DNA of 64,000 bases, taken from positions 887,634 through 951,633 of the forward strand of contig LDJB01000001.1 in the NCBI GenBank assembly GCA_001028815.1, given 5' to 3'. A program made the translations under genes and the position numbers. Below, in pieces: positions 35,480 to 59,804 of the stretch. Within the stretch, counting starts at the first letter, position 1. Each line of letters opens with the position of its first letter. The DNA is from Peptococcaceae bacterium 1109. GTDB taxonomy: Bacteria; Bacillota; Limnochordia; Darwinibacteriales; Darwinibacteriaceae. The notes under the pieces are model-generated. The model was not told the origin of the DNA. It worked only from the letters and a program-made list of their open reading frames with translations, and did not search any database.

Positions 35480-36835
35480 CTAGATGATCGCCAAGATTAC
35501 GAAGTTGATGATAAACAAGATGGTGGAAACAGCCAGGATGGGATGAATCTCCTGGGCTTTCCCCTTCATGATCTTAACCAAGCAGTAGAAGACAAAGCCC
35601 GCAGCGATACCATAGGAGATGCTGTAGCACAGCGCCATGAACACGCCGGCAAAGAAGGCTGGTACTGCTTCTTCGAAATCGGTCCAGTTAATCTCAGCGA
35701 AGGCAGACAGCATCATGATGCCTACCACGATCAAGGCCGGTGAGGTTGCAGCGGAAGGCACAGCGCTTACCAGCGGTGCAAAGAATGCACTCAAGAAGAA
35801 CATGACCGCCACTACCACGCTAGTGAGCCCGGTGCGCCCACCTGCGCCGATCCCAGCTGCACTCTCAACATAGGTGGTGGTATTGGAGGTACCGAAGATA
35901 GCACCGATGGAGGTGGCTGTAGCATCAGCAAACAGGGCCCTGTCCATCTTCGACTTAAAGCCTGAGCTTGTCTCCAAAGACCGCTGGTCTTCTTCGGAGA
36001 AGATGCCTGTCTTCCGGCCGGTACCGATGAAGGTGCCGATGGTGTCAAAGGTGTCAGACAGACTGAACGCAAAGATGGTCATGAGCACCAAGGGGATCTT
36101 CGCCGGGTCGCTGAACAACGACACAAGCCCTGGATTGCCAAAGGCTGCAAAGATAGTGGTCTTCAATTCAGAGACAGCTTGTCCCAAACCAACGGTGGAG
36201 CCAACCTGGGTGACGCCAAAGGGGATCCCCAGCAGGGTTGTGACCACGATACCGATCATGATTGCGCCTTTGACGTTGTTGATGAGCAGAATCACCGTCA
36301 AGGCCAGGCCGAACAGGGTAAGCAGAACGCTGGGGTGATTTAGGGGAACCAGTTCAGGGATGCCTGCATCGAAGCTTAGCAAGCCAGCATTCTTGATGCC
36401 GATGTAGGCGATGAAAATACCGATGCCGCCGCCGATGGCATTTTGCAGGCCTTCAGGGATGGACTTGATGATCAGCTTCCGAATGCGGGTAGCGGTAATC
36501 ACGATGTTGATTATGCCGCAGACAAACACCATTGCCAGGGCTTCCTGCCATGTAAAGCCCAAACTGAAAACAACCGTAAACACAAAGAATGCATTGAGGC
36601 CCATGCCAGGAGCCTGCGCATAGGGAACATTAGCGAAAAGGCCCATGACAAGTGTACCGATGATAGAAGCGATGATTGTGGAGAGGAACACCGCGCCCCA
36701 GGGCATACCAGAGAGAGACAGTATGTCGGGGTTGACCATGATGATGTACGCCATGGCAAAGAACGTTGTAAGCCCGGCAATCACCTCGGTACGGACGTTA
36801 GTACCATTCTCCTTCAGTTTGAAAAAATTCTCCAT
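35480..36835 (-). CDS. NCS2-family guanine/hypoxanthine permease
   Basis: This 451-residue AzgA-type purine permease has 12 to 14 hydrophobic segments. Marks include EVIAGLTTFFAMAYIIMVNP at the N-terminus, YAQAPGMGLNAFFVFT, GGGIGIFIAYIG, and the substrate-site region FDTIGTFIGTGRK and GTSNTTTYVESAAGIGAGGR. It brings guanine or hypoxanthine in with protons. I chose the ATG at 36835, which follows GGAGGAGTAAAG. A guanine-type purine riboswitch and a terminator hairpin sit in its leader, so uptake would be shut off when guanine or hypoxanthine is plentiful. No purine salvage enzyme is adjacent. Confidence 0.95.
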   Translation of the reverse strand: MENFFKLKENGTNVRTEVIAGLTTFFAMAYIIMVNPDILSLSGMPWGAVFLSTIIASIIGTLVMGLFANVPYAQAPGMGLNAFFVFTVVFSLGFTWQEALAMVFVCGIINIVITATRIRKLIIKSIPEGLQNAIGGGIGIFIAYIGIKNAGLLSFDAGIPELVPLNHPSVLLTLFGLALTVILLINNVKGAIMIGIVVTTLLGIPFGVTQVGSTVGLGQAVSELKTTIFAAFGNPGLVSLFSDPAKIPLVLMTIFAFSLSDTFDTIGTFIGTGRKTGIFSEEDQRSLETSSGFKSKMDRALFADATATSIGAIFGTSNTTTYVESAAGIGAGGRTGLTSVVVAVMFFLSAFFAPLVSAVPSAATSPALIVVGIMMLSAFAEINWTDFEEAVPAFFAGVFMALCYSISYGIAAGFVFYCLVKIMKGKAQEIHPILAVSTILFIINFVILAII

Positions 36836-36913
36836 CTTTACTCCTCCATCCTCTAGTTTGTAACTGCTATACAAGAATAGGAACTGGTTCCTAAGTCCCC
36901 CAAAACTGGAAAT

Positions 36914-36945
36914 AAAAAAACAGCTGTCGAGTGCTCGACAAGCTG
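36914..36945 (-). terminator. Riboswitch-controlled terminator hairpin
   Basis: On the minus strand CAGCT-T-GTCGAG pairs with CTCGACAGCTG around a 2-base loop and is followed by TTTTTTT. It lies between the purine aptamer and the permease gene and is the likely expression platform. A second hairpin, CACAAGG/CCTTGTG, lies between the aptamer and it (36954-36979). Confidence 0.85.
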
Positions 36946-36995
36946 TAAGATCCACAAGGCGACGCCTTCACCCCTTGTGTACGCGCTTCGTTAGC

Positions 36996-37064
36996 ACTCA
37001 TAGCGTAGGCAATATAGGTTGCCACGTAGAAACTCCTGCACCAAATTTGCAGGCTTATATGAGT
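36996..37064 (-). promoter_or_regulatory. Purine riboswitch aptamer, guanine class
   Basis: On the minus strand the 69-base aptamer has P1 ACTCATA/TATGAGT, P2 GCCTGCA/TGCAGG with loop AATTTGG, J2/3 TTTCTAC, and P3 GTGGCAA/TTGCC with loop CCTATA. L2 and L3 can form the usual kissing pairs. The base before the final U and P1, equivalent to position 74, is C, which predicts guanine/hypoxanthine and not adenine binding. A likely promoter, TTTACA-17-TACCGT, lies upstream at 37094-37122. The region 36836-37140 therefore consists of this leader. Confidence 0.92.
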
Positions 37065-37140
37065 CGCATATCACATATTCAATTCACATACTTACGGTAC
37101 CACACTTTACAGCAGATGTAAAGCTTGGATGCATCAAAAA

Positions 37141-46875: not shown

Positions 46876-47781
46876 CTACGACTGTGCCTTACCAGAGACA
46901 ACAGCAAAATATTCTCTGAAGAAAGCATCAGGAGTAACGCGCGCGGCAACCTTGTGCCGTCCGCAGGGGTCTTCCCCAAAGTTAGTCATCCCCGCAAGGG
47001 TGCTGCTCTGCAATTCTACTGCCACAGTCCCTGTCTCATACTCCATCACTTCAGGCCTAAAGATGGACACTGCAGCGAGGGGGTCGTGGAATGTGAGGAG
47101 CTCACTCTGTTTGAACCACACCTCCGCGGCATCTGCGATCAAGTCCAGGGCTCCACCCTGAAAACGAAGCCGGGACTCTACAGCGGAGAAGGTGCACTGG
47201 GTTGTCACGTCTAAACCCACTGAGACACTGCTGATGTGGGGATTTTGGTATACCATAGCCGCAGCTGTGGGGTCAAGATAGGCGTTCCACTCCACAAAGG
47301 TGTTGAGTTTCTTGTAGCCAAAGGTGCCGATCATCATAACCAGAGACTTCAGAAGCTTGGGAATCTCCGGGTCCACGGCAAAAAGTGCGGCGATGTTAGT
47401 GAGAGGCCCAATGGTGAGCAAAGTGATCTCTCCCGGGTACTTTCGAATGGTTTCCCGGAGGAAGTCCACCGCGGTATCTGCGGGAAAGTCACGCCTGTGT
47501 TCCCACCTATCCAAAACTGCTGCTTGCTGCGCTTTGGGCTGCCGCTGCACGCCTAACAGGGGGTTGGCTGCACCGCTGTGGATGGGAATCCCTTCCCGCC
47601 CGAATGCACGGCACAGTGCATCCGCGAGCATGGCCCGCCTCTGGGGCTCGCCGGAAACGGTAGTGATACCCAACAGATCGCAGCGCGGCTGGCTGAGCAG
47701 ATATGCCAGGCACACCGCATCATCAATATCAGAGCCAATGTCAGTATCCAACAGTACTTTGATTCTGTCTTGTGCGCTCAA
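46876..47781 (-). CDS. Inosine-uridine-preferring type nucleoside hydrolase
   Basis: This 301-residue enzyme cleaves the N-glycosidic bond of nucleosides to free base and ribose. The calcium-binding Asp cluster is visible at the N-terminus in VLLDTDIGSDIDDAVCLAYL, a variant of DTDPGxDDD. ITLLTIGPLTNIAALF and VEWNAYLDPTAAAMV follow, with a C-terminal FHDPLAAV segment that supplies the last Asp and His. I chose the TTG at 47781, eight bases after AAAGGAG, giving a normal family length; the longer upstream frame is not similar to anything. It has its own promoter (47828-47857) and terminator. Released bases could be a source for purine salvage with the permease at 35480. Confidence 0.9.
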   Translation of the reverse strand: MSAQDRIKVLLDTDIGSDIDDAVCLAYLLSQPRCDLLGITTVSGEPQRRAMLADALCRAFGREGIPIHSGAANPLLGVQRQPKAQQAAVLDRWEHRRDFPADTAVDFLRETIRKYPGEITLLTIGPLTNIAALFAVDPEIPKLLKSLVMMIGTFGYKKLNTFVEWNAYLDPTAAAMVYQNPHISSVSVGLDVTTQCTFSAVESRLRFQGGALDLIADAAEVWFKQSELLTFHDPLAAVSIFRPEVMEYETGTVAVELQSSTLAGMTNFGEDPCGRHKVAARVTPDAFFREYFAVVSGKAQS

Positions 47782-47947: not shown

Positions 47948-50900
47948 ATGGGAGCGCGTTGGGGGAAAATAGGTTCACTAGTGTTCCTTTTGGGACTGCT
48001 CGTACTCGTTGCAGGCTGTGAACAGCCAAACCAGCCAGGGTTCCAGTTGTCAGGTGACAGCTTGGAGATCACCCACTTGACCTCGGGCACGATCGATGCC
48101 CACACGTTGATCGCGGTGCGGTACAAGGACGCTCAGGTCACTGAAGACCTGTACCGCAAGGCACTGCCAGTTGATGTTTTCAGTTTTTCGCCAGAAATCA
48201 AGGGGAAAACCTATTGGCAGGATTCCCGCACTCTAGTATTTGAGCCCGACCAACCCCTATACAGCAAAGCCCAGTACCAGGCTGTATTGGATCACGCCAA
48301 ACTGCTGCCTGAGGGTAAGCGGGCTGCGGCCGCATCAGTGGGATTCCAGTTTGAAACGCCTGGTCAAGAACTAGTGGCACTAGATGGTGCCTTTGTCCCC
48401 ACCCAACAAGGCCAGCTAGACCAGGTGTATTTCACCAGCACCTTGGAGTTTGGGCAAAAGGTCAGCCTCGAGGTGCTCAGCAGCGCCCTTCAGCTTACAT
48501 TAGATGGACAGCCCCTGGAGTTTGCTGTGGAAACTGCGGACGGATACAGCTTCACAGCAAAGTCCGCGGAGCTAGAGCGCCTGTCCCACACCGAGCGGAA
48601 GGTTACCATCACTCTCGAAGGTGGCCCCCTTAGCCTTGAAAAGGACGTTGCCCGCCAGTTTGTCCTTCCTGCCCTCATGGAGCCCCTCGCGGTAGAGCGT
48701 ATCGAAGAGGAACGGGTGGGGGACTTCTCTCAGCTGCGCCTGATCTTCACCGAACCCCTCAAAGAAGCTAAGGATTACGCCGGTTACATGAGCATTCTAC
48801 CCACCATGAGGTACGGGGTTGCCGTGGAGGGGAACAGCCTGGTTGTCACAGGGGAGTTCCGCCCAGGCGAGAAGTACAGCCTCCGCCTCTTCCCCGGAAT
48901 TGAGAGCGTTTCCGGGCAAAAGCTCTCTGAGCAAACAGAGCTTTTCTGGGAAGTACAGATCTCCGATCGGAAGCCCGCAGTGGAGTTTGTGAACTCGGGT
49001 ATGTTCATGACCACCAGCAGCAACCAGAAAATCGCCTTCCGCACCATGAATGTAGAGCGTATCCGCCTCCAGGTAAAACGGGTTCCCCAGGCCAACCTGA
49101 TAGAATTCTTCGAAGAAAACTCCTACTATCCCCAGAGTTCATCCTTCAGTGCCTACAACCGCTACGGCTTCCAGCGTTACGGCGAAGTCTTAGTGGACTC
49201 CATCATTAACATTGGCCGAGAGATGAACAAGTGGGTCTACTCTGAACTAGACTTGGCCGATGTGCTCACTGATAATGGGGGCCTTTACATCGTCCAGCTG
49301 AGTTTTGATGAAAACCACGCGCTATACTTCCCGGAAGAGTACGACTGGTATGACATCAGCAGCTACACCGCGGCCCGTGGACAGGCAGTAAAGCATGTCC
49401 TGGTGAGCAATATCGGCATCACCGCGAAGGAACTCCTTGGGGAGATGCATGTGTTCCTCACCGATCTGCTCACAACTGATTTACTCCCTGGTGCAGAAGT
49501 CATGCTCAAAGACGGCAGCGGCAAAGTGCTGGACAGGGCAGAAACCAATGATTCTGGCTGGGCCGTGCTAAAAACAAACAGCCACGCTCGGTACATTGAG
49601 GTGAACGCAGACAGCGGTTATGCCATCCTCTCCCTCTCCTCTTCGCAGCTGAACAACTCTCTCTTTGACATCGGCGGAGTGCAGCGGCAGGATGGAATCG
49701 ATGCCTTCATCTATACTGAGCGAGGTGTCTACCGTCCCGGCGATCCCATCCATCTAGGGGCGATCGTCCGCAATGACGAGCACACATTTCCCGAAAATCA
49801 TCCCATTACCCTCTATCTCTATAACCCCTTGGGACGCTTGGTTCACGAGGAGGTCTTAACAAGAAGCGAAGACGGCTTCTATGCGGCAACCGTTGCCACT
49901 GACCCCAGTTCCCCCACGGGTACCTGGGAAGTGGTATTGGACATCGGTGGCCGGCTGTTCACTCACCCTGTCAGGGTGGAGACCATTGTGCCCTACCGCA
50001 TCCGGGTACAGCTTGAGGCGTCTGCCGCACAGCTTGGCCCTAATGATGAGTACGTGGACATGGCCATTAAGTCCGAATACCTCTTTGGAGCCCCTGCTAG
50101 CGGGCTCACTCACGAAACCACTGCCGTAATCGAACCAGTAGATGTAAGCTTCTCCCGGTATCAGGGCTTTGTGTTCGGAAATGAGAGCATTAACTTCCCT
50201 CGCATGGAAACTGCAGCGATCCGCGATGCCTTAGACGATGCGGGTGAGTACACCATGCGAGTAGAGGTCCCCAACGTGGATGGCATTCCCAGCGCTTTGC
50301 GCCTCCGCATTGATACCAAGGTCTACGAAAGCGGCGGCCGCTTTGTACCAGCAACTGCTTTCCTTCCCATCGAGGTTTATCCCAGCTACGTGGGGATAAT
50401 GCCCGATGGCGGCTCAGAAATGGGCATGGGAGATCAAGCTGGCTTCCACATCGTCCATGTTACCAGCAGTGGTGAGCCCATTCCCAACTCCGAGCTAGAA
50501 TACACCATCTACCGCTACCGCTATTACTGGTGGTGGGAGTATGACAGCCAAGCAGATTTTAGACGGCACTACAAGAGCAACGGGGAAACGGTCATCTTGG
50601 AGCAGGGCAAAGTGTCCACTAACGAGGAGGGGGTGGCCTACCTTCGGCACACCTTAGCAGACTACGGAGAGATCCTTGTTGAGGTAAAGGACCCACAAGG
50701 AGGGCATAGCGCGGGGTACTTCTTCCGCTCCTATTGGTTTGGGGGCAGCTACGAACCGCGCACAGCGGATATCGTCAACCTGAAACTTGATCGGCCTTCA
50801 TACTATCCTGGCGAGACAGCCCTGGTAACTTTGAACACCCCAGCCCAGGGGCGAGCGTTGATCACCCTAGAAAAAGAAGGGCAGATCCTCTACCAAAGCT

Positions 50901-53386
50901 GGGAGGAGCTGACTGGTACAGAGTCCACTTTCGCCGTTCCTGTGGACGAAAGGTGCATCCCCAACGCGTATCTATCGGTAATGGCCTACCAGCCCTTTGA
51001 CCAAAAGGACAATGACCTCCCCCTCAGGGTGTACGGAGTGGTGCCTCTTTATGTAATAAGCGAGGGCACGAAGTTCTCCTTCCAGATTAACGCCCCAGAG
51101 GCAGTGCGGCCTGAAGAGGAGTTCACGGTAAAGGTTCAGACTTCCGATGGAAGCCCTGCACAATTTACCTTGGCCGTGGTCGATGAAGGTATTCTGGACA
51201 TCACTGGATTTGAAACCCCTGAGCCGTGGGATCACTTCTTCGCTAAACAGCGCCTTTTGACCAAGACGTACGATAACTTCTCCGATGTCATCGATCTCTA
51301 CTACGGATACATGCACAACACGCTGTCCGTGGGGGGCGGGATGGAGGCAGATTACCGAGAGCAGCGGGTTGGCGCTGACGATGCCAAGCGTTTTGAACCG
51401 GTAAGCATCTTTAAGGGCCCCTTCAAGACCGATGAATCGGGCTCAGCAGAGGTTACGCTAGAGGTTCCCAACTATATCGGGAGCCTGCGAGTGATGGCAG
51501 TAGGAGCTCACCAGGGGCGCTACGGCAGCGGCGAACAGAGAGTCGCTGTAAAGTCCCCGGTCATGGTCCTCCCCACTCTGCCCCGAGTTGTGGGCCCTGA
51601 GGACCAGTTTGTGGTACCCGTGACCGTGTTTGCCCTGGAAGAAGGCGTGGGCGAGGTTCTGGTAACTCTTGATGTGACAGGGCCCATCGCTGTGTCGGGC
51701 CCCACGGAGTTCACTCTGGACTTCAGCAAGGCGGAAAGCCAAGAGATCCGGTTTGACCTAGAAGCTCAAGGTGCTATCGGCACTGCCCAGATCACTGTCT
51801 CGGCCCATTCCCCTGCTTTCCAATACAGCAATATCAGTGAGACCGAACTGGCTGTCCGGCCCTATAACCCAGTGATCTACTTCAGCGACGAACGCCTGGC
51901 GAATCCCGGTGAGTCACTTGTGCTTTTCCCTCCACGGGAAGGAGTGCCGGGAACCGAGTCCCTGCAGCTTACGGTCTCTGCTTTCCGGGGACTCAACATC
52001 AATCACCGCCTGAAGTGGCTCATCCGCTATCCCTACGGGTGCCTCGAACAGGTGACATCCACGGTGTTCCCCCAGCTCTACCTGCCTGAAGTGTTTAACC
52101 CAACCTCGGAAGAGCTGCAGGACATTGACGAGAACATCAACGCAGCCATTCAAGCCTTCAGGGAATACCAACTCGGGAGTGGGGGCTTCTCCTATTGGCC
52201 CAACCAATCCACAGCGGATTACTGGTCCACTAACTACGCGGGCCACTTCCTCTTAGAGGCACGGGCGAAAGGCTACCACATCCCCCGGAACATGTTGGAG
52301 ATGTGGGCACAGTACCAGCAGCAGGCGGCAAGGGAAAACCTGGGCAATACGCTCACGAGGGCCTATCGACTCTACCTCTTAGCCTTAGCCGGACGTCCAG
52401 AGCTCAGTGCCATGAACTACATGCGTGAGAGCGAGCTAGAGAACTTAGGCAATCCTGGGAAGTATCTTCTGGCAGGAGCTTACCACCTCCTGGGATATGG
52501 GCAGATTAGGGATGAGATCTTAGCAACGGCAGATCTCCGTGTCCCTGATTACTTCGAGTTTGGGGACACCTTCGGCTCCACCTTGCGAGACCGGGCGGTG
52601 ATCTTGCACGTCTTAACCCTGATCGGTGACTACAACAAAGGAGCAGCCCTTTACGATGTAATTGCCCGAGCCATCTCGTCAAATGAGTGGTACTCCACCC
52701 AGGCCACTGCCTACTCCCTCATGGCTTTAACCAAGTACATCGCGGCTGTAAAAGCAGATAGCCCTGGGATCAGCGGGCGGCTTGTCACAGACAGCCTTCA
52801 TCAGGAGCTAGCCATCAGCGATGTGGTAGGAATAGTGCCTCTCCCTGCGGGAGAAGCTGTGGTGTACTTCGAAAACACCAGCGAGGTGCCGCTCTTTGTC
52901 ACTCTCGAATGGGAGGGTATACCCAAGCGGGACGACCTCGCACCAGTCCAGCAGGGGTTGGCCCTTAGGACCGGGTACTTCAACGCCGCGGGCGAGCCCG
53001 TTGACATTTCCCGGCTGCGGCAGGGCGACAGCTTCTACATGGTTTTCCGAGTGGCCCAAGAAGACTGGGAGTACATCGACGAGGTAGCCTTGGTACAGAT
53101 CCTCCCCGCGGGTTGGGAGATCGAGAACCCCCGGCTCTCCACAGAAGGCCTCCCGGATTGGGCCATGGAGTACTTCCTAGGACTGGAAGATTATGTGGAC
53201 ATCCGGGATGATCGGATCATGTGGTTCTTTGACAAAGCACCTTACTACAGCTACGACTTCATGGTGAAGATCAATGCAGTAACCGTGGGCAAGTTCTACC
53301 TACCCCCCACCCTCCTGGAGGCCATGTATAACAATGACTATAAAGTGGTCACAAGAGGGCGGATCGTAGAGGTATTACCACGATGA
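47948..53386 (+). CDS. Alpha-2-macroglobulin family lipoprotein with thioester motif
   Basis: This 1812-residue protein is the bacterial alpha-2-macroglobulin (YfhM type), a protease trap on the outer face of the inner membrane. A lipobox VAGC with Cys24 follows a hydrophobic signal. The body holds Ig-like MG domains; GVYRPGDPIHLGAIVRND is the conserved MG2 region near residue 600. VVDEGILDITGFETPEPWDHFF near the middle is the usual A2M core. The thioester motif CLEQ is intact (Cys1365 to Gln1368, in YPYGCLEQVTS), followed by a helical thioester domain with GSGGFSYWP. I chose the ATG at 47948; the frame stays open far upstream but only as the antisense of the nucleoside hydrolase. It overlaps pbpC by four bases, the same pairing as in E. 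coli. Confidence 0.93.
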   Translation: MGARWGKIGSLVFLLGLLVLVAGCEQPNQPGFQLSGDSLEITHLTSGTIDAHTLIAVRYKDAQVTEDLYRKALPVDVFSFSPEIKGKTYWQDSRTLVFEPDQPLYSKAQYQAVLDHAKLLPEGKRAAAASVGFQFETPGQELVALDGAFVPTQQGQLDQVYFTSTLEFGQKVSLEVLSSALQLTLDGQPLEFAVETADGYSFTAKSAELERLSHTERKVTITLEGGPLSLEKDVARQFVLPALMEPLAVERIEEERVGDFSQLRLIFTEPLKEAKDYAGYMSILPTMRYGVAVEGNSLVVTGEFRPGEKYSLRLFPGIESVSGQKLSEQTELFWEVQISDRKPAVEFVNSGMFMTTSSNQKIAFRTMNVERIRLQVKRVPQANLIEFFEENSYYPQSSSFSAYNRYGFQRYGEVLVDSIINIGREMNKWVYSELDLADVLTDNGGLYIVQLSFDENHALYFPEEYDWYDISSYTAARGQAVKHVLVSNIGITAKELLGEMHVFLTDLLTTDLLPGAEVMLKDGSGKVLDRAETNDSGWAVLKTNSHARYIEVNADSGYAILSLSSSQLNNSLFDIGGVQRQDGIDAFIYTERGVYRPGDPIHLGAIVRNDEHTFPENHPITLYLYNPLGRLVHEEVLTRSEDGFYAATVATDPSSPTGTWEVVLDIGGRLFTHPVRVETIVPYRIRVQLEASAAQLGPNDEYVDMAIKSEYLFGAPASGLTHETTAVIEPVDVSFSRYQGFVFGNESINFPRMETAAIRDALDDAGEYTMRVEVPNVDGIPSALRLRIDTKVYESGGRFVPATAFLPIEVYPSYVGIMPDGGSEMGMGDQAGFHIVHVTSSGEPIPNSELEYTIYRYRYYWWWEYDSQADFRRHYKSNGETVILEQGKVSTNEEGVAYLRHTLADYGEILVEVKDPQGGHSAGYFFRSYWFGGSYEPRTADIVNLKLDRPSYYPGETALVTLNTPAQGRALITLEKEGQILYQSWEELTGTESTFAVPVDERCIPNAYLSVMAYQPFDQKDNDLPLRVYGVVPLYVISEGTKFSFQINAPEAVRPEEEFTVKVQTSDGSPAQFTLAVVDEGILDITGFETPEPWDHFFAKQRLLTKTYDNFSDVIDLYYGYMHNTLSVGGGMEADYREQRVGADDAKRFEPVSIFKGPFKTDESGSAEVTLEVPNYIGSLRVMAVGAHQGRYGSGEQRVAVKSPVMVLPTLPRVVGPEDQFVVPVTVFALEEGVGEVLVTLDVTGPIAVSGPTEFTLDFSKAESQEIRFDLEAQGAIGTAQITVSAHSPAFQYSNISETELAVRPYNPVIYFSDERLANPGESLVLFPPREGVPGTESLQLTVSAFRGLNINHRLKWLIRYPYGCLEQVTSTVFPQLYLPEVFNPTSEELQDIDENINAAIQAFREYQLGSGGFSYWPNQSTADYWSTNYAGHFLLEARAKGYHIPRNMLEMWAQYQQQAARENLGNTLTRAYRLYLLALAGRPELSAMNYMRESELENLGNPGKYLLAGAYHLLGYGQIRDEILATADLRVPDYFEFGDTFGSTLRDRAVILHVLTLIGDYNKGAALYDVIARAISSNEWYSTQATAYSLMALTKYIAAVKADSPGISGRLVTDSLHQELAISDVVGIVPLPAGEAVVYFENTSEVPLFVTLEWEGIPKRDDLAPVQQGLALRTGYFNAAGEPVDISRLRQGDSFYMVFRVAQEDWEYIDEVALVQILPAGWEIENPRLSTEGLPDWAMEYFLGLEDYVDIRDDRIMWFFDKAPYYSYDFMVKINAVTVGKFYLPPTLLEAMYNNDYKVVTRGRIVEVLPR

Positions 53387-55710
53387 AGGCAAGGCTCTGC
53401 AGGAAGAAATGGGCTGCTCCCGCAGCCCTTATTGCCCTCTTAGTGGGGACAATGATCGCGGCAGTTGCTTATGCCTGTGTGACTCTCCCTAGTCCCCTCT
53501 TCACTACTGATTACAGCACCGTGGTCTTGGATGAACACGGTGCTATACTGCGCGCCTTCCTAAACAGTCAAGAGCAGTGGATTCTCCCTGATGACGGCAG
53601 CCCTATCCCTGAGAAGCTCAAGATAGCGGTCATCACTTTCGAAGACAAGCGTTTTGAAAGCCATCTTGGGGTCGATCCCTTGGCCGTACTCCGTGCAGTG
53701 TACCAAAACATCCGCCATGGTGGGCGGATCAGTGGCGCAAGCACCATTACCATGCAGGTGGCCCGGTTGATGCGCCCCAAGGAACGGACTGTGAGGAACA
53801 AGCTGTTGGAGATGACCCAAGCGGTGGCCATTGAACTTTCCTACAGCAAGGACGAGATCCTCAAAGCATACCTCATGCACGCGCCCTACGGCGGCAACAT
53901 CATCGGATACCGCACCGCTTCCCTGCGCTACTTCGGAAAGGAACCAGGAAAGCTCAGCTGGGCTGAGGCGGCAACGCTGGCAGTGCTCCCTAACAACCCA
54001 GGGCACATCAATCCCAAGCAAAACCCCGAAGGGCTGAGGAGAAAGCGGGATGGTCTCCTCCTCGCCCTGCACCAGGCTGGCCACATCGATGAAGCCACCT
54101 ACAGCCTGGCAGTGGCAGAGCCCGTGCCCCAGGGGCAGCATGCCTTCCCCCTCTCCGCACCTCACCTGGCGGAGCGCCTCGCTAGGAACTCCTCAGACAC
54201 CATTATCCGCACAACTATCGATAAAGACATCCAAGACCTGGCAACCGTGCTGTTAAAGGCCCACATCGGGGGCCTAGCACGTCACGGTGTAGAGAACGGC
54301 GCGGTACTCATCGCGGACACTGCCACCGGCGCAGTTAAGGCATATGTGGCCTCCCATGACTACTTCGATAAGGAACGGGCGGGCATGGTGGACGGAGTGC
54401 AAATGAAGCGTTCTAGCGGCTCCATCCTCAAGCCATTCCTTTATGCCCTTGCCATGGATGAAGGCCTAATCGTACCAGAGAGCGTCCTTCCAGATATCCC
54501 CACTAGCTACGGAGGCTTTACTCCCCATAACGCGGATGGTAGTTTTGCTGGAGTGGTGAGGGTGCGGGAGGCCTTGACCCGTTCCTTGAACGCTCCCGCT
54601 GTGCACCTCCTTAGCGAGTATGGCGTTGAGAACTTCTACTCCTTTCTCACAAAAGCAGGTTCAAGGTTAACCCGCCAGCCCCATGAGTACGGCCTGTCCC
54701 TGATTTTGGGCAGTTCGGAAAGCAGCCTGTGGGAATTGGCCTGTCTCTACCGGGGTTTGGGTACTATGGGCAGGTCTTGGGATATCCACGTCCTCCCAGG
54801 CGCCGCAGGAAATAGGGAAAAACAGCTCATCTCCCCAGGGGCGGCTTACCTCGTCCTTGACATCCTTAAAGATGTGCGCCGGCCTGGGCTAGAGGGGAAC
54901 TGGCGGGCATACCCTTCCAGTTCCCCCCTGGCATGGAAAACCGGGACAAGCTACGGAAGCCGCGATGCCTGGGCCGTTGGGGTCTCGCCCCAGTGGACTA
55001 TCGCGGTCTGGGTGGGGAACTTTTCTGGAGGCAGCGTATCGGGCCTTACAGGCGTGGACTCTGCAGGCCCCCTTCTGTTCCAAGTGTTCAACAGGCTGCC
55101 CAAGGATCCATACGGCCTGTGGTTTGCCAGACCTGAGGCAGACTTGGTTGAAGTGAGCGTCTCCCCTGCCACGGGCTACCGCCTTCAGGGAGTGGCTCAG
55201 AACACCGCCCGTGCACAAGCCCCAGCCTCCGCCAAACCACTGCGCTATTCACCCTATGAGCGCACCCTCTTTGTTACTGGGGATGAGCGCATGATGGTCT
55301 GCTCCCTCTGCTGGGATCGGCAGGACGTGAAGACAATCCAGAAAGTGGTTTATCCCCTTGAGATCGCGCGCCACTTGGGCGGTGCGGCTAGGCAGTACGT
55401 CCTCCCACCCCATAACCCCGATTGTCCGGCCCTGGCTGGGGAAAACCCCATCAGCATCACGTATCCCCAACCCTCCAGCTTGCTTTTCATCCCCCGGGGC
55501 GCTGATGGCCAGTACCAGCAGATTAAGCTTGAGGCTGTCCACGCCAGCCAAGGGAAGGGTCTATTCTGGTACCTGGACGGAACATACCTCGGCCAGACCA
55601 GGGGCATCCACCATCAGGCAGTGTCCTTGGAACCGGGCTCTCACATACTGTATCTCGTGGATGAAGATGGGTACGCAAAGACGGTAAGCTTCCGCACAGA
55701 AAGACGCTAA
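53383..55710 (+). CDS. pbpC: Penicillin-binding protein 1C
   Basis: This 775-residue bifunctional cell-wall enzyme has one N-terminal membrane helix (about 12-30). The GT51 glycosyltransferase motif EDKRFESHLGVDP begins at Glu87, followed by GASTITMQVARL. The transpeptidase has SILK (Ser347, Lys350), SLN (Ser401-Asn403) and KTGTS (Lys519). The C-terminal BiPBP_C domain (about 685-770, with DGTYLGQT and VSLEPGSHIL) is specific to the PBP1C type. A pair of Cys in MVCSLCWD is also typical. The ATG overlaps the macroglobulin stop (ATGA). In E. coli the partners are thought to defend and repair the wall when the outer membrane is breached. All catalytic residues are present. Confidence 0.95.
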   Translation: MKARLCRKKWAAPAALIALLVGTMIAAVAYACVTLPSPLFTTDYSTVVLDEHGAILRAFLNSQEQWILPDDGSPIPEKLKIAVITFEDKRFESHLGVDPLAVLRAVYQNIRHGGRISGASTITMQVARLMRPKERTVRNKLLEMTQAVAIELSYSKDEILKAYLMHAPYGGNIIGYRTASLRYFGKEPGKLSWAEAATLAVLPNNPGHINPKQNPEGLRRKRDGLLLALHQAGHIDEATYSLAVAEPVPQGQHAFPLSAPHLAERLARNSSDTIIRTTIDKDIQDLATVLLKAHIGGLARHGVENGAVLIADTATGAVKAYVASHDYFDKERAGMVDGVQMKRSSGSILKPFLYALAMDEGLIVPESVLPDIPTSYGGFTPHNADGSFAGVVRVREALTRSLNAPAVHLLSEYGVENFYSFLTKAGSRLTRQPHEYGLSLILGSSESSLWELACLYRGLGTMGRSWDIHVLPGAAGNREKQLISPGAAYLVLDILKDVRRPGLEGNWRAYPSSSPLAWKTGTSYGSRDAWAVGVSPQWTIAVWVGNFSGGSVSGLTGVDSAGPLLFQVFNRLPKDPYGLWFARPEADLVEVSVSPATGYRLQGVAQNTARAQAPASAKPLRYSPYERTLFVTGDERMMVCSLCWDRQDVKTIQKVVYPLEIARHLGGAARQYVLPPHNPDCPALAGENPISITYPQPSSLLFIPRGADGQYQQIKLEAVHASQGKGLFWYLDGTYLGQTRGIHHQAVSLEPGSHILYLVDEDGYAKTVSFRTERR

Positions 55711-55731
55711 GGGGAGGCTGCTTGCCTCCCC
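55711..55731. terminator. Bidirectional terminator between pbpC and the FGGY kinase gene
   Basis: GGGGAGGC and GCCTCCCC form a perfect 8-base-pair stem with a 5-base loop between convergent stop codons. The T tails are short, so strength is uncertain. Confidence 0.65.
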
Positions 55732-55737
55732 TTCCAG

Positions 55738-57183
55738 TTAGATGATCCCTTGCGTTGCGTGGTAGAACTCGAGATACTTCTCGTACCGCCTCCGGTACTG
55801 GCTTGCTTTTTCTGGTGAAGATGGCGAGCATATGATCCTAGGATGGACATAACGCTCCCCGTCCAAGCCGCCGTTGATGCTGGCCAGAGCCACCAAGACC
55901 GCTCCCATTGTGGAGTCATTCTTCGTCCCCGTTGTCCACAGTTCCCTGCCCAAGAGGTCGCAGGCCAACTGGAGCCAGAAAGGGGAATGCATGATGCCCC
56001 CTGAAACGAGGATGCGCTCCGGGACATCGGCCACTTCAGTTAGAATGGTGTAGCACTGGTAGAGGTTAAACAGCACCCCTTCCAGGATTGCGTAGTACAT
56101 TTCTGGAGGCCCATGGCTGGATTTCAGCCCCACAAATCCCCCGGGACGGTTCTCGTCCCAACCGGGGCACCGTTCGCCATAGATGAAAGGCAGAAATATG
56201 GGTGCAGATTCCACATCCACCTCCGCAGCGGCCCGGTCGAAATCATCGTAACGGCGGGAACGGTGCCCGCACCGGTCTAGGTACCAATCAATGCAGTTAG
56301 TGGCCCCGTTGGTGGCGGCCCCTGCCAAGCGCTGGCCATCGTAGAGGTAGTAGCACCATGTGGATGGCTCTTGGGGAAGCTTAGGGGCATCCACAGCCAT
56401 GCGCATGGCGCCGCTGGTACCCACAGAGAAGGACATGACCCCTTGGCGTGCGCCGCCGATGGCTACCTGATTCATGGCGCCGTCCGCGCCCCCCACTGTG
56501 ACTGGGGTGCCTGCTTTAAGGCCCACCTCTCGGGCAATGGATTCCTGCAGCCCGCGGTGGTGAAACACTTCCTCAAGGTCACTCAGCTGATCCCTGCGCA
56601 GGCCCACGAGGTCCAGGAGCCGTTCGTCCCAATCTAGCGTATGGATGTTGAGCAAACCCGTTCCTGAAGCGGTACAGCGGGAGGCTGCTTGACCGCCCGT
56701 GAGCACTTGGAACAAGTATTCCACCTGGGACGATAGATAACACACCTCCTCAGCCAACTCAGGGTTCGTCCTAACCAGATGGTAGAACTTGTACGCAGGG
56801 TACATCGCGTGGACCATGCAGCCGGTTCTCTGGTAGCAGTCCTGCACAAACTTCTGGTCTTGCTTTAGTGCTGCCACCGTTGGGGTGGCACTGAGATCTG
56901 CCCACATGCTGATGGGCCTGAGGGGACGCCTGTCCTTATCTAGCAGTAACAGGCTGTGCCACGTACCAACCAGCCCAATGGCCGCGATGTCCCTTTGGTT
57001 CCGCCCCGCTACGCTCTTTAGGGCCTTCAGGGCAACGGCCACCATACCCTCAGGATCCTGGGTAATCTTATCCGTCACATCCCGCTGGAAAGGGATCTCG
57101 ATAGAATCGATAACTCCCTCCCGTGCGGAATAAAGGGCGCACTTAGCCGCGGAGGTGCTTACCTCGAGACCGATAACATTCAA
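55738..57183 (-). CDS. FGGY-family carbohydrate kinase (xylulokinase/gluconokinase-like)
   Basis: This 481-residue ATP-dependent sugar kinase has an N-terminal ATPase lobe with VIGLEVSTSAAKCALYSA. DTS-type phosphate binding is replaced by EVSTSAAK. AIGLVGTWHSLLLLDKDRRPL is the substrate region. The C-terminal lobe has PVTVGGADGAMNQVAIGGA, with the catalytic Asp, and a late ERILVSGGIMHSPFWLQLACD FGGY signature. It phosphorylates a pentulose, hexulose or aldonic acid. The start is TTG, behind AGGTGATG. It is the last gene of the TRAP/SDR/LarA-like cluster, separated from the SDR gene by about 50 bases. An aldonate or ketose substrate is inferred from context. Confidence 0.9.
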   Translation of the reverse strand: MNVIGLEVSTSAAKCALYSAREGVIDSIEIPFQRDVTDKITQDPEGMVAVALKALKSVAGRNQRDIAAIGLVGTWHSLLLLDKDRRPLRPISMWADLSATPTVAALKQDQKFVQDCYQRTGCMVHAMYPAYKFYHLVRTNPELAEEVCYLSSQVEYLFQVLTGGQAASRCTASGTGLLNIHTLDWDERLLDLVGLRRDQLSDLEEVFHHRGLQESIAREVGLKAGTPVTVGGADGAMNQVAIGGARQGVMSFSVGTSGAMRMAVDAPKLPQEPSTWCYYLYDGQRLAGAATNGATNCIDWYLDRCGHRSRRYDDFDRAAAEVDVESAPIFLPFIYGERCPGWDENRPGGFVGLKSSHGPPEMYYAILEGVLFNLYQCYTILTEVADVPERILVSGGIMHSPFWLQLACDLLGRELWTTGTKNDSTMGAVLVALASINGGLDGERYVHPRIICSPSSPEKASQYRRRYEKYLEFYHATQGII

Positions 57184-57234
57184 GTGGCATCACCTGCTTC
57201 TATGCTGCACACCAGGGTCCACAACCCTGCGGCG

Positions 57235-57966
57235 TCAATCCATCAAGAATCCTCCGTTGACATCTATTATTTCGCCGGTGATGAAGCCTGCACCTTCCGA
57301 GACTAGAAAGCGCACACAAGCAGCTACATCTTGGGGCTGGCCCAGGCGCTTCAGGGGAATAGCATCGATAATCGCTGCCCGCCTTTCCGGCGACCACTGC
57401 GCGCTCATATCCGTTTCAATGGCGTGGGGGGCTACCCCGTTCACCGTAATGCCGTAAGGGGCCAGTTCCCTCGCGAAGGTTTTGGTCAAACCGTCCATGG
57501 CAGCCTTAGAGGGCCCATAGCCCGGAGCGGAGGTGATGTCCCCCAGCTTGGCCGCGACTGAGGAGATGTTCACGATCCGGCCTGTGCCTTGCTGCTTCAT
57601 AACCTCTGCAACGTACTTACAGAGCAGGAACGCACCACGAACGTTTACAGTAAAGACAATGTCCCAATCAGCTACACTAATCTCTTCAGAGTGCCGCCTG
57701 CGGATGATCCCCGCGTTGTTCACCAGCACATCAATGCGCCCAAACTCCTCCACAACGCCTCGGACGAGTGCCTGCACGCTCTCTTCATCAGCTACATTGC
57801 ATTTCCTGAAAACCAGCTTGCCAGGGTTGCGTTCCTCAACGGCCTGGCCCCGTTCCTGGTTTATGTCACACACAACAACCTTGTAGCCATCATCCGCCAG
57901 GCCTAAGGCGATAGCTTCGCCGATCCCAGCCACACCGCCAGTTACCAGTGCTACTTTGACACTCAT
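57235..57966 (-). CDS. Short-chain dehydrogenase/reductase (SDR)
   Basis: This 243-residue classical SDR has the cofactor motif TGGVAGIGEAIA near the N-terminus, VVCDINQERG (its Asp suggests NAD), NNAGIIRR, and the catalytic Ser-Tyr-Lys set in NISSVAAK and YGPSKAAMDGL. The C-terminus FITGEIIDVNGG is typical of the FabG/gluconate dehydrogenase group. I chose the ATG at 57966, six bases after GGAGG; the upstream frame runs into the dctM gene. It lies 23 bases after dctM. In this cluster it probably oxidises or reduces a sugar acid or polyol, but the precise substrate is not readable. Confidence 0.9.
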   Translation of the reverse strand: MSVKVALVTGGVAGIGEAIALGLADDGYKVVVCDINQERGQAVEERNPGKLVFRKCNVADEESVQALVRGVVEEFGRIDVLVNNAGIIRRRHSEEISVADWDIVFTVNVRGAFLLCKYVAEVMKQQGTGRIVNISSVAAKLGDITSAPGYGPSKAAMDGLTKTFARELAPYGITVNGVAPHAIETDMSAQWSPERRAAIIDAIPLKRLGQPQDVAACVRFLVSEGAGFITGEIIDVNGGFLMD

Positions 57967-57989
57967 ACTAAGCCTCCTCTCAAACTGGA

Positions 57990-59270
57990 TCAGCCAAAGA
58001 GCAAGTTGGGCAAGAACAGCACCAACTGGGGAAACAGCACTAGGAGCACCACCACAAGCAGTACAGCCACCAAGAACGGCCAACCTTCCCTGAGGTACTC
58101 ACCTACGGAGCACTCCATGATGGAACAGACAGAGTACATGGAGATGCCCACAGGCGGGGTCAAGAGGCCAATGGCACAGGAAAGGACCATGACAACCCCA
58201 AAGAACACAGGGTTGATCCCTAGTGTCTTAATCACAGGGACTAGTATAGAGGTGAGTAAGAGGATCATCACGGTCGAATCCATGAACATCCCGAAGAACA
58301 ACAAGAACAACAAGATGACCGCCGTGATCACGGTGGGATTATCGCTAATCCCCAACAAGAACCCAGAAAGAGTTTGGGGGATCATCTCCCACTTAATCGC
58401 ATAGCTAACCAAGGCAGAAAGGGCTATGAGGAGCATAATGGTCCCTGTATCGCCCACGGAAGCCTTCGTAGCACGCCAGAATCCTTTCCAATCCATTTCT
58501 CGGTAGATCAAGGCGCCCACTACCACTGCGTAAACCGCGGCCATTGCTCCCGCTTCAGACGGGACCAAGAGGCCGCCCCGGAGGGTCACAAGGAGGAAGA
58601 TAGGGAACAACATGGCCCAGATACTGCTCATGAAGGTCCGGCCAACATCCTTCGCCGGTGCTCTCTTCTCCCGCTCTGGCATATAGCCCTTTTTGCGCGC
58701 CGTAATACTCACTGTAGTCCCGAATGCAAGAGCCATGAGCAAACCCGGCACCATACCGCCGGCGAGGAGCCGACCCACTGAAACTTCCCCGATGCTTCCG
58801 TAGAGGACAAGCCCAATGGAAGGAGGGATAGCAATGGTTATGAGCCCGGTAAAGCCGTTTACCGCAGCAGAGTAACCCCGGGCATATCCCCGGGCCGTCA
58901 TGGATGGCCCAAGGATACGTGATTGCATGGAAGCGTCGGCAATAGCGGATCCCGAAACTCCCCCCATCAAGGTACTGAGCACCACACTCACTTGGGCGAT
59001 CCCACCGTGCATGTGTCCAGTGAGCACTGAGGCAAACTCCATCAGACGTTTGGTAATCCCAGTCTCATTCATGAGATTGCCCGCAAACACAAACATCGGA
59101 ATAGCCAGCAATGCAAAAGCCTGCGTCTCTGAGAGGATTAGCTGCACCGGCATTGTGAGGGGCAAGTAACTCTCCTGCAGGAAAAAGGCAAAGCCAGCGA
59201 TGCCGATGGCAAAGGCAACAGGCATACCTGCAAGCAAGAACACGAAGAAAAGAATCAGAACCAGAGTCAT
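57990..59270 (-). CDS. dctM: TRAP transporter large permease DctM
   Basis: This 426-residue membrane protein of the DctM family has about 12 hydrophobic helices. It opens LILFFVFLLAGMPVAFAIGI, the family start, and carries GGVSGSAIADASMQSRILGP and the NGFTGLITIAIPPSIGLVLYG-type central segment. TPPVGISMYSVCSI near the end is the second half of the inverted repeat. It forms the ion-coupled channel with DctQ. The ATG has GGAGAG upstream. It is 12 bases after dctQ and 23 bases before the SDR gene. The substrate is set by DctP. Confidence 0.95.
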   Translation of the reverse strand: MTLVLILFFVFLLAGMPVAFAIGIAGFAFFLQESYLPLTMPVQLILSETQAFALLAIPMFVFAGNLMNETGITKRLMEFASVLTGHMHGGIAQVSVVLSTLMGGVSGSAIADASMQSRILGPSMTARGYARGYSAAVNGFTGLITIAIPPSIGLVLYGSIGEVSVGRLLAGGMVPGLLMALAFGTTVSITARKKGYMPEREKRAPAKDVGRTFMSSIWAMLFPIFLLVTLRGGLLVPSEAGAMAAVYAVVVGALIYREMDWKGFWRATKASVGDTGTIMLLIALSALVSYAIKWEMIPQTLSGFLLGISDNPTVITAVILLFLLFFGMFMDSTVMILLLTSILVPVIKTLGINPVFFGVVMVLSCAIGLLTPPVGISMYSVCSIMECSVGEYLREGWPFLVAVLLVVVLLVLFPQLVLFLPNLLFG

Positions 59271-59282
59271 GGTCTTCTCTCC

Positions 59283-59804
59283 TTAACCTTGGATTGACTG
59301 CTTCGGATCAACAGTATCCGCCCTGGCAGCCCTATACTCAGCTATCAAGTCTCTCAGCTTGAGTACGGCGGTAATGAGAAGCAGGGTGCTGCCAATGGGA
59401 ACAGTAATTGTGGCCCAGGTGTAACTGAAGCCAGGAATGCCCTGATACGTGCGGAAACGCGTAATCCAGGACATACTAATTCCATAGCGGATCAATAAGG
59501 CCAAAAAGATACCAATGATCACATGGTTACACATGTGCACGATGAGCTGAGCTCTCTTGGGAAGCAGCCGCACCAAGATATCTAGGCTGACGTGTTTGTT
59601 GTCCCGCCATGCGGCATCAGCCGCGAAAAAGACGGTCCAGGCAAAGAGAAACGTGGCCATGTCCATGGACCATCCCAGTGGATAGCCGATGATTCTCCCC
59701 ACAGCCCCAGCCATGACCACTAACACGCTAGCCACCAAAGTGATGCCGGCCAGCCGCTCTTCCCACTCAATGATGAACTTGTAAGCCTTTTTCAAGAAAT
59801 CCAC
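59283..59804 (-). CDS. dctQ: TRAP transporter small permease DctQ
   Basis: This 173-residue protein has four membrane helices. GYPLGWSMDMATFLFAWTVF with the conserved FAWTVFFAADAAWRDNKHVS stretch is the DctQ signature. I chose the GTG at 59804, whose GAGGTGAACGCT ribosome region is well spaced; the GTG three codons upstream lies inside that site. It pairs with DctM. A hairpin at 59836-59868 separates it from dctP. Confidence 0.93.
   Translation of the reverse strand: MDFLKKAYKFIIEWEERLAGITLVASVLVVMAGAVGRIIGYPLGWSMDMATFLFAWTVFFAADAAWRDNKHVSLDILVRLLPKRAQLIVHMCNHVIIGIFLALLIRYGISMSWITRFRTYQGIPGFSYTWATITVPIGSTLLLITAVLKLRDLIAEYRAARADTVDPKQSIQG

Follow-up and report, generated by a model that had tools for sequence, protein, structure and literature searches.

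A type I alpha-2-macroglobulin and PBP1C gene pair in a Bacillota genome with outer-membrane genes and without detected LpxC or LpxA

The adjacency of bacterial genes for alpha-2-macroglobulin (A2M) and penicillin-binding protein 1C (PBP1C), as well as the proposal that their products trap proteases and repair the wall, are established (PMC3328433, PMC4498604), and the pair described here is a further example of an arrangement already known in bacteria. The closest described systems, E. coli YfhM (ECAM) with PbpC and the Salmonella A2M (PDB 5a42, 4rtd, 4ziq, 4u48), resemble it in gene order, lipoprotein anchor, MG and bait domains, the YPYGCLEQ context of the thioester and the PBP1C partner. 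The window, by which we mean the whole stretch of 64,000 nucleotides that was analyzed (G000:C1:887634-951633), lies on a 1.13-Mb contig of the Peptococcaceae bacterium 1109 assembly (2.7 Mb in 11 contigs). Its two products share about 24% (A2M) and 33% (PBP1C) identity with those of E. coli. The A2M has a longer N-terminal part, with 1812 residues versus about 1653 in E. coli and Salmonella, and carries Glu at position +2 after the lipid-bearing cysteine, where the latter two have Asp. A preliminary description of the locus had likened it to the enterobacterial yfhM-pbpC layout, including a four-base overlap of the genes; order and strand are indeed those of E. coli, whereas the overlap is not an enterobacterial trait, as the K-12 genes abut (2647326/2647325). 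Unlike E. coli and Salmonella, the host lacks the genes of a lipid A pathway.

The two genes (Table 1) translated exactly into 1812 and 775 residues, and the intact reading frames, thioester and lipobox reported in the preliminary description were all confirmed. In the A2M, residues V21-A22-G23-C24 close the signal peptide, the processing of which is predicted from the sequence, and the thioester reads GCLEQ within YPYGCLEQ (residues 1361-1368) as in E. coli YfhM. The open reading frame called mechanically begins further upstream, with a GTG at 47324; we preferred the ATG at 47948 because the lipobox is then at the right distance and AAGGGGG stands just before this ATG. Above the Pfam cut-offs, the protein matched, in this order, bMG3, MG2, bMG5, bMG6, BRD, A2M, TED (PF07678; 23.5 bits, cut-off 22) and bMG10, with an additional sub-threshold match to PF21142 (A2M_bMG2; 21 bits, cut-off 25.5). 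The solved structures that matched it best in phmmer were those of E. coli and Salmonella YfhM (5a42/4rtd/4ziq; E 4e-93, residues 486-1799). With CxEQ in the TED, bait and MG domains, a lipobox and an adjacent pbpC gene, the protein is predicted to be a type I A2M of the YfhM/ECAM class.

Table 1. Positions of the A2M and PBP1C genes and of their domains and motifs in the window.
Feature	Position	Strand	Basis
Bacterial alpha-2-macroglobulin (type I, thioester-bearing), lipoprotein, 1812 aa	47948..53386	+	Pfam domains; phmmer to YfhM structures
Lipobox V-A-G-C; Cys24 predicted lipidated, +2 residue Glu	48008..48019	+	Read off sequence
MG2 domain (PF01835)	49700..49978	+	Pfam
Bait-region domain (PF07703)	50777..51199	+	Pfam
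Thioester (TED) domain, matched part (PF07678)	52004..52291	+	Pfam
Thioester motif CLEQ (C1365-Q1368), two shielding tyrosines YPYG ahead of it	52040..52051	+	Motif reading
bMG10 domain (PF17973), conserved EAMY tyrosine near C terminus	52955..53332	+	Pfam; motif reading
Penicillin-binding protein 1C, 775 aa, hydrophobic N-terminal anchor	53383..55710	+	TIGR02073, above cut-off
Glycosyltransferase (transglycosylase) domain PF00912, EDKRFESHLG intact	53596..54060	+	Pfam; motif reading
Transpeptidase domain PF00905, SILK / SLN / KTGTS intact	54298..54999	+	Pfam; motif reading
PBP1C C-terminal domain PF06832 (BiPBP_C)	55435..55692	+	Pfam
ATGA overlap, A2M stop and pbpC start	53383..53386	+	Sequence; also in G165, G135, G342, G404

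The downstream product scored 727 bits against the equivalog model TIGR02073 (cut-off 494.2), and its catalytic motifs SxxK, SxN, KTG and that of the glycosyltransferase are complete. The ATGA overlap is common to the A2M-PBP1C clade to which the window belongs, being shared by the four other genomes listed in Table 1. Scans for promoters and terminators gave numbers of sites no higher than those in shuffled sequences. The same operon was present in a genome of the same genus, G405 (A2M 68%, PBP1C 77-79% identity), followed by the same kinase, SDR and TRAP genes, and it is therefore not an assembly artefact. Between the two genomes, over window positions 51542-59318, A2M (68%) and PBP1C (77%) diverge faster than the TRAP permease (90%) and the SDR (85%). 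Elsewhere in the window, an ordinary purine riboswitch (36981-37082, minus strand) immediately precedes a xanthine/uracil permease gene (35480-36955, minus strand).

Limnochordia, the class of this organism, have been described as diderm, and according to a passage in PMC11456536 each of the 46 genomes studied by Taib et al. 2020 has an outer-membrane cluster. The preliminary description had called the surrounding genes clostridial and had suggested a diderm-type or unusual envelope. Genes resembling spoIIID, Mbl and SpoIVB, named by eye, do occur elsewhere in the genome, but the genome is diderm by its gene content. On the contig of the window, where the Omp85 gene lies at 45 kb, the region G000:C1:41000-70000 codes for FlgA, FlgH, FlgI, FlgJ, a SpoIVB-like protein, BamA and two OmpH-like proteins, followed by LptF/G, an LptD-sized protein, LptC, LptA and a 719-residue membrane protein with an ABC ATPase, and ends with an LpxB-like protein, LptB and an SLH-domain OmpM-like protein. 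Pfam matches confirmed BamA, which carries POTRA domains, LptF/G, LptC, LptA, LpxB, SLH, FlgI and FlgH, and the rest were named by eye or by synteny; LptF/G, LptC and LptA were above the cut-off, whereas the sole match of the LptD-sized protein, to DUF3769, barely passed it (21.3 bits, cut-off 20.5). FlgH and FlgI form the rings that a flagellum needs for its passage through an outer membrane. The presence of BamA, OmpH, LptF/G, LptC, LptA, LptB, OmpM and the flagellar L- and P-ring genes on one contig with the operon thus makes the host diderm by its genes, and the intact protease trap and wall builder would be carried because the cell has a second, outer membrane. The 719-residue protein (L004:13789-15948) has no Pfam match and is followed by the ABC ATPase gene; both occupy the same place in lipopolysaccharide (LPS)-positive and LPS-less members of the class, the protein with 44-57% identity to its counterparts in G392, G165 and G101, and they are a candidate for an uncharacterized envelope transporter.

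LPS is the lipid that normally covers the outer membrane. LpxC was found neither in the window's own genome nor in any of the 37 genomes of its order, Darwinibacteriales, with a search that finds it in E. coli and other controls; 31 of the 36 remaining genomes of the class have it. Among 16 genomes of the class searched for LpxA, it was missing from all six inside the order and present in all 10 outside, E. coli and other controls being positive. Omp85 is retained in 36 of the 37 genomes of the order and LptF/G in 35. The genome check for outer-membrane and lipid A genes proposed in the preliminary description hence turned up BamA and an LptD-sized protein and failed to find LpxC, and the envelope, without LpxC or LpxA and so without a lipid A pathway, is unusual beyond what had been suggested.

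The organization of the cluster in G392, an LpxC-positive member of the class, served for comparison. It begins with TamB, BamA, OmpH, LpxD, LptF/G, an LptD-like protein, LptC, the 719-residue protein and the ABC gene, and continues with LpxC, a nucleotidyltransferase, FabZ, LpxA, LpxI, LpxB, LptB, a second LptF/G and an OmpM-like protein. The window's genome (G000) and two further genomes, G165 and G101, keep this gene order, but their cluster is without TamB, LpxD, LpxC, LpxA and LpxI, and one LptF/G match only was found per genome of the order, versus two in the G392 cluster. FabZ is still in the cluster of G165 and G101. All three genomes also still have LpxB, in which Gly replaces D98, the residue predicted to act as catalytic base in the E. 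coli enzyme (PMC5785501), and the GEASGD-type motif is lost, with R201 retained. The simplest reading of these gene contents is that the order lost lipid A but kept its outer membrane, the remaining LpxB being repurposed or decaying.

Three genomes of families f69 and f79 (G078, G148 and G114) likewise have Omp85 and no LpxC; their A2M is of a different type (CVEQ) and no pbpC was found nearby. The LPS-less diderm state may thus have arisen more than once, and f69/f79 possibly represent a second such lineage. A survey of atypical Gram-negative Bacillota (PMC11448272) reports species that have neither LPS genes nor BamA, whereas the order of the window keeps BamA and is in a different state. 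No description of an LPS-less order that keeps its outer membrane was found in the literature searched; the key survey of Taib et al. 2020 lies outside that search, so that the state may already be known.

Distribution of the pair was analyzed in 398 genomes drawn evenly across the phylum. A2M was present in 38 and Omp85 in 102, with 37 genomes having both (Fisher p 1e-23 by genome); the only A2M genome without Omp85, G366, has LpxC and its genus-mates bear Omp85. With families counted by hand, A2M occurs in 12 of the 36 families that have Omp85, and the other families, about 105, are all without it (Fisher p 1.6e-8). PBP1C scored above the cut-off in 17 genomes, all of them Omp85-positive and all with the gene beside that of A2M. 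Since A2M and PBP1C are confined to Omp85- or LpxC-bearing genomes, the pair marks an outer membrane within Bacillota, A2M being a near-perfect marker (37 of 38 with Omp85, 38 of 38 when LpxC is counted), and this match favours the view that A2M is of use to bacteria only behind an outer membrane. No joint mention of A2M and diderm Firmicutes was found in the literature searched.

Outside the window's clade, pairs were found in five other diderm Bacillota families (f28, f48, f102, f110 and f132), which have adjacent genes, CxEQ and Omp85- and LpxC-positive hosts; their A2M carries a membrane span and not a lipobox. A second Bacillota A2M type (f57, f69 and f79; about 1240-1740 residues, CVEQ) has CxEQ and a homologous bait-to-TED region in common with the window protein, with 21-26% identity over part of the length, and no PBP1C-like gene was found in the flanks examined. 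Within the order itself, a full or nearly full A2M gene was found in seven of 37 genomes and a broken remnant in an eighth, and in the rest of the class none was found in 10 sampled genomes. The patchy presence in the order could reflect losses or repeated transfers. The remnant (G415:C156:5398-5655), from the same family as the window's genome, has internal stops and is a sign of recent loss.

The mode of anchoring differs among A2M proteins of the clade. Those of the window, G405 (LTSC-Q) and G342 have a lipobox, and in G165, G135, G404 and apparently G426 the lipobox is replaced by a membrane span at the N terminus, as is also the case in the other Bacillota families. Because the type of anchor changes while anchoring is kept, A2M probably needs to be located at the cytoplasmic membrane, alongside PBP1C. 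The lipidated N terminus would tether A2M to the outer face of this membrane next to PBP1C, itself held there by its membrane span. A protease that has passed the outer membrane would cut the bait region, upon which the cage would close and the freed CLEQ thioester would bind the protease covalently, and PBP1C would polymerize and cross-link glycan, mending damaged peptidoglycan. Of this mechanism, the sequence itself shows the intact motifs and the gene linkage; protease trapping, partnership with PBP1C and localization we infer from the E. coli and Salmonella proteins. The direction of the transfer discussed below is putative.

As for the origin of the operon, the window A2M shares 52-68% identity with its homologs within the order, 54% with that of G342, from another class, and 37-38% with those of two Calditrichota, compared to 27-31% with the A2M of pairs from the remaining diderm Bacillota families, no nearer than Bacteroidota. 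The full-length PBP1C shares 50% with Calditrichota and 35-38% with other Bacillota. Both trees joined the window clade to Calditrichota, Bacteroidota, Fusobacterium and Treponema (100/100) and kept it separate from the remaining Bacillota pairs. In these other phyla (Calditrichota, Bacteroidota, Fusobacteriota and Spirochaetota) gene order is the same, and about 7-48 bases separate the two genes, versus the overlap in the window. The phylogeny of both proteins, proposed as a check in the preliminary description, rejected a single Bacillota clade by AU tests (PBP1C, p 1.6e-9; A2M, p 6.9e-10 with Proteobacteria in the set); with the A2M set without Proteobacteria, which leaves too little outgroup, a single Bacillota side was not rejected (p 0.09). 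The trees and AU tests resolve two separate Bacillota lineages of the pair. Calditrichota are the sister in the A2M tree with 82-89% support, and the PBP1C tree puts the long-branched Fusobacterium nearer, the non-Bacillota sampling being thin in both (two Calditrichota, plasmid-borne homologs and E. coli). G342 was placed within or beside the order's clade, so the operon has moved between Bacillota classes too. The comparison of codon use, also proposed beforehand, brought out no foreign signature: neither codon use, which is host-like (z = 0.64 and 0.28), nor GC3 deviated as a sign of recent transfer. A transfer would therefore be old. The origin of the pair is best explained by transfer from one diderm to another long ago, with later losses: the operon would have entered the ancestor of the order laterally from a non-Bacillota diderm, with Calditrichota as nearest sampled kin, and would often have been lost since, both direction and donor being putative.

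Collectively, these results make it very probable that the locus is a genuine type I A2M-PBP1C operon of a diderm Bacillota, acquired laterally and encoding a periplasmic protease trap with wall repair. Descent of the pair from the ancestor of diderm Bacillota with massive loss would fit its occurrence in five families outside the window's clade and the native codon use, and the pattern of the trees would also result from an ancient duplication with differential loss; such descent is rather unlikely, given that neither gene is compatible with one Bacillota clade in the AU tests, that both proteins are nearer to Calditrichota than to other Bacillota, and that A2M is missing from the 10 genomes sampled in the rest of the class. 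The preliminary description had also considered a transfer into a monoderm, where the module would work on the cell surface. Both protein trees bear out the transfer, but the recipient is diderm: clostridia-like neighbours and sporulation-type genes speak for a monoderm, and against it stand the genes for BamA, the Lpt proteins, OmpM and the flagellar rings specific to an outer membrane, all on the contig of the operon, together with A2M being essentially missing from Omp85-negative genomes, so that we consider a monoderm host highly improbable. Even less credence, almost none, can be given to a contaminating or misassembled contig. The assembly was reported to be 4.48% contaminated, but the 1.13-Mb contig holds both the outer-membrane cluster and the window, with a GC of 0.548 in both, codon use is that of the host, and operon and downstream genes recur in G405.

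Function offers a further alternative, namely that A2M mainly controls proteases made by the cell itself in the periplasm, or that it acts structurally at PBP1C while the wall grows. Apart from the operon, the window encodes TRAP and sugar ABC transporters as well as central metabolism and gives no hint of a host-associated life, and the strict coupling to pbpC by the conserved overlap would suit such a role. The members of the clade that were examined, however, retain the thioester motif and both shielding tyrosines, a conservation that a covalent trap for cutting proteases would lead one to expect, and we regard this alternative as improbable in comparison with a trap for proteases that pass the outer membrane.

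The LPS-less setting is of greater interest than the A2M-PBP1C pair itself. Because the order, by its genes, makes no lipid A, its outer membrane may be leakier, and this might explain why the trap was retained; a full or nearly full gene is, however, present in only seven of 37 genomes. That A2M gain follows LPS loss as a rule was rejected, since most A2M-PBP1C hosts in the phylum are LpxC-positive and so few members of the LPS-less order have the gene. Tentatively, it is possible that the order lost lipid A and kept the outer membrane with the LptF/G-LptC-LptA-LptB bridge, which would now carry a different lipid; that the LpxB-like glycosyltransferase was recruited to make this lipid or is a relict; and that A2M-PBP1C was acquired as extra protection behind the changed membrane. 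It is usually assumed that LPS and the outer membrane disappear together, and the origin of monoderms from diderm Bacillota is debated. If the outer membrane of this order is real, loss of LPS would be separable from loss of the outer membrane, and the cargo of the leftover Lpt bridge would become a direct question.
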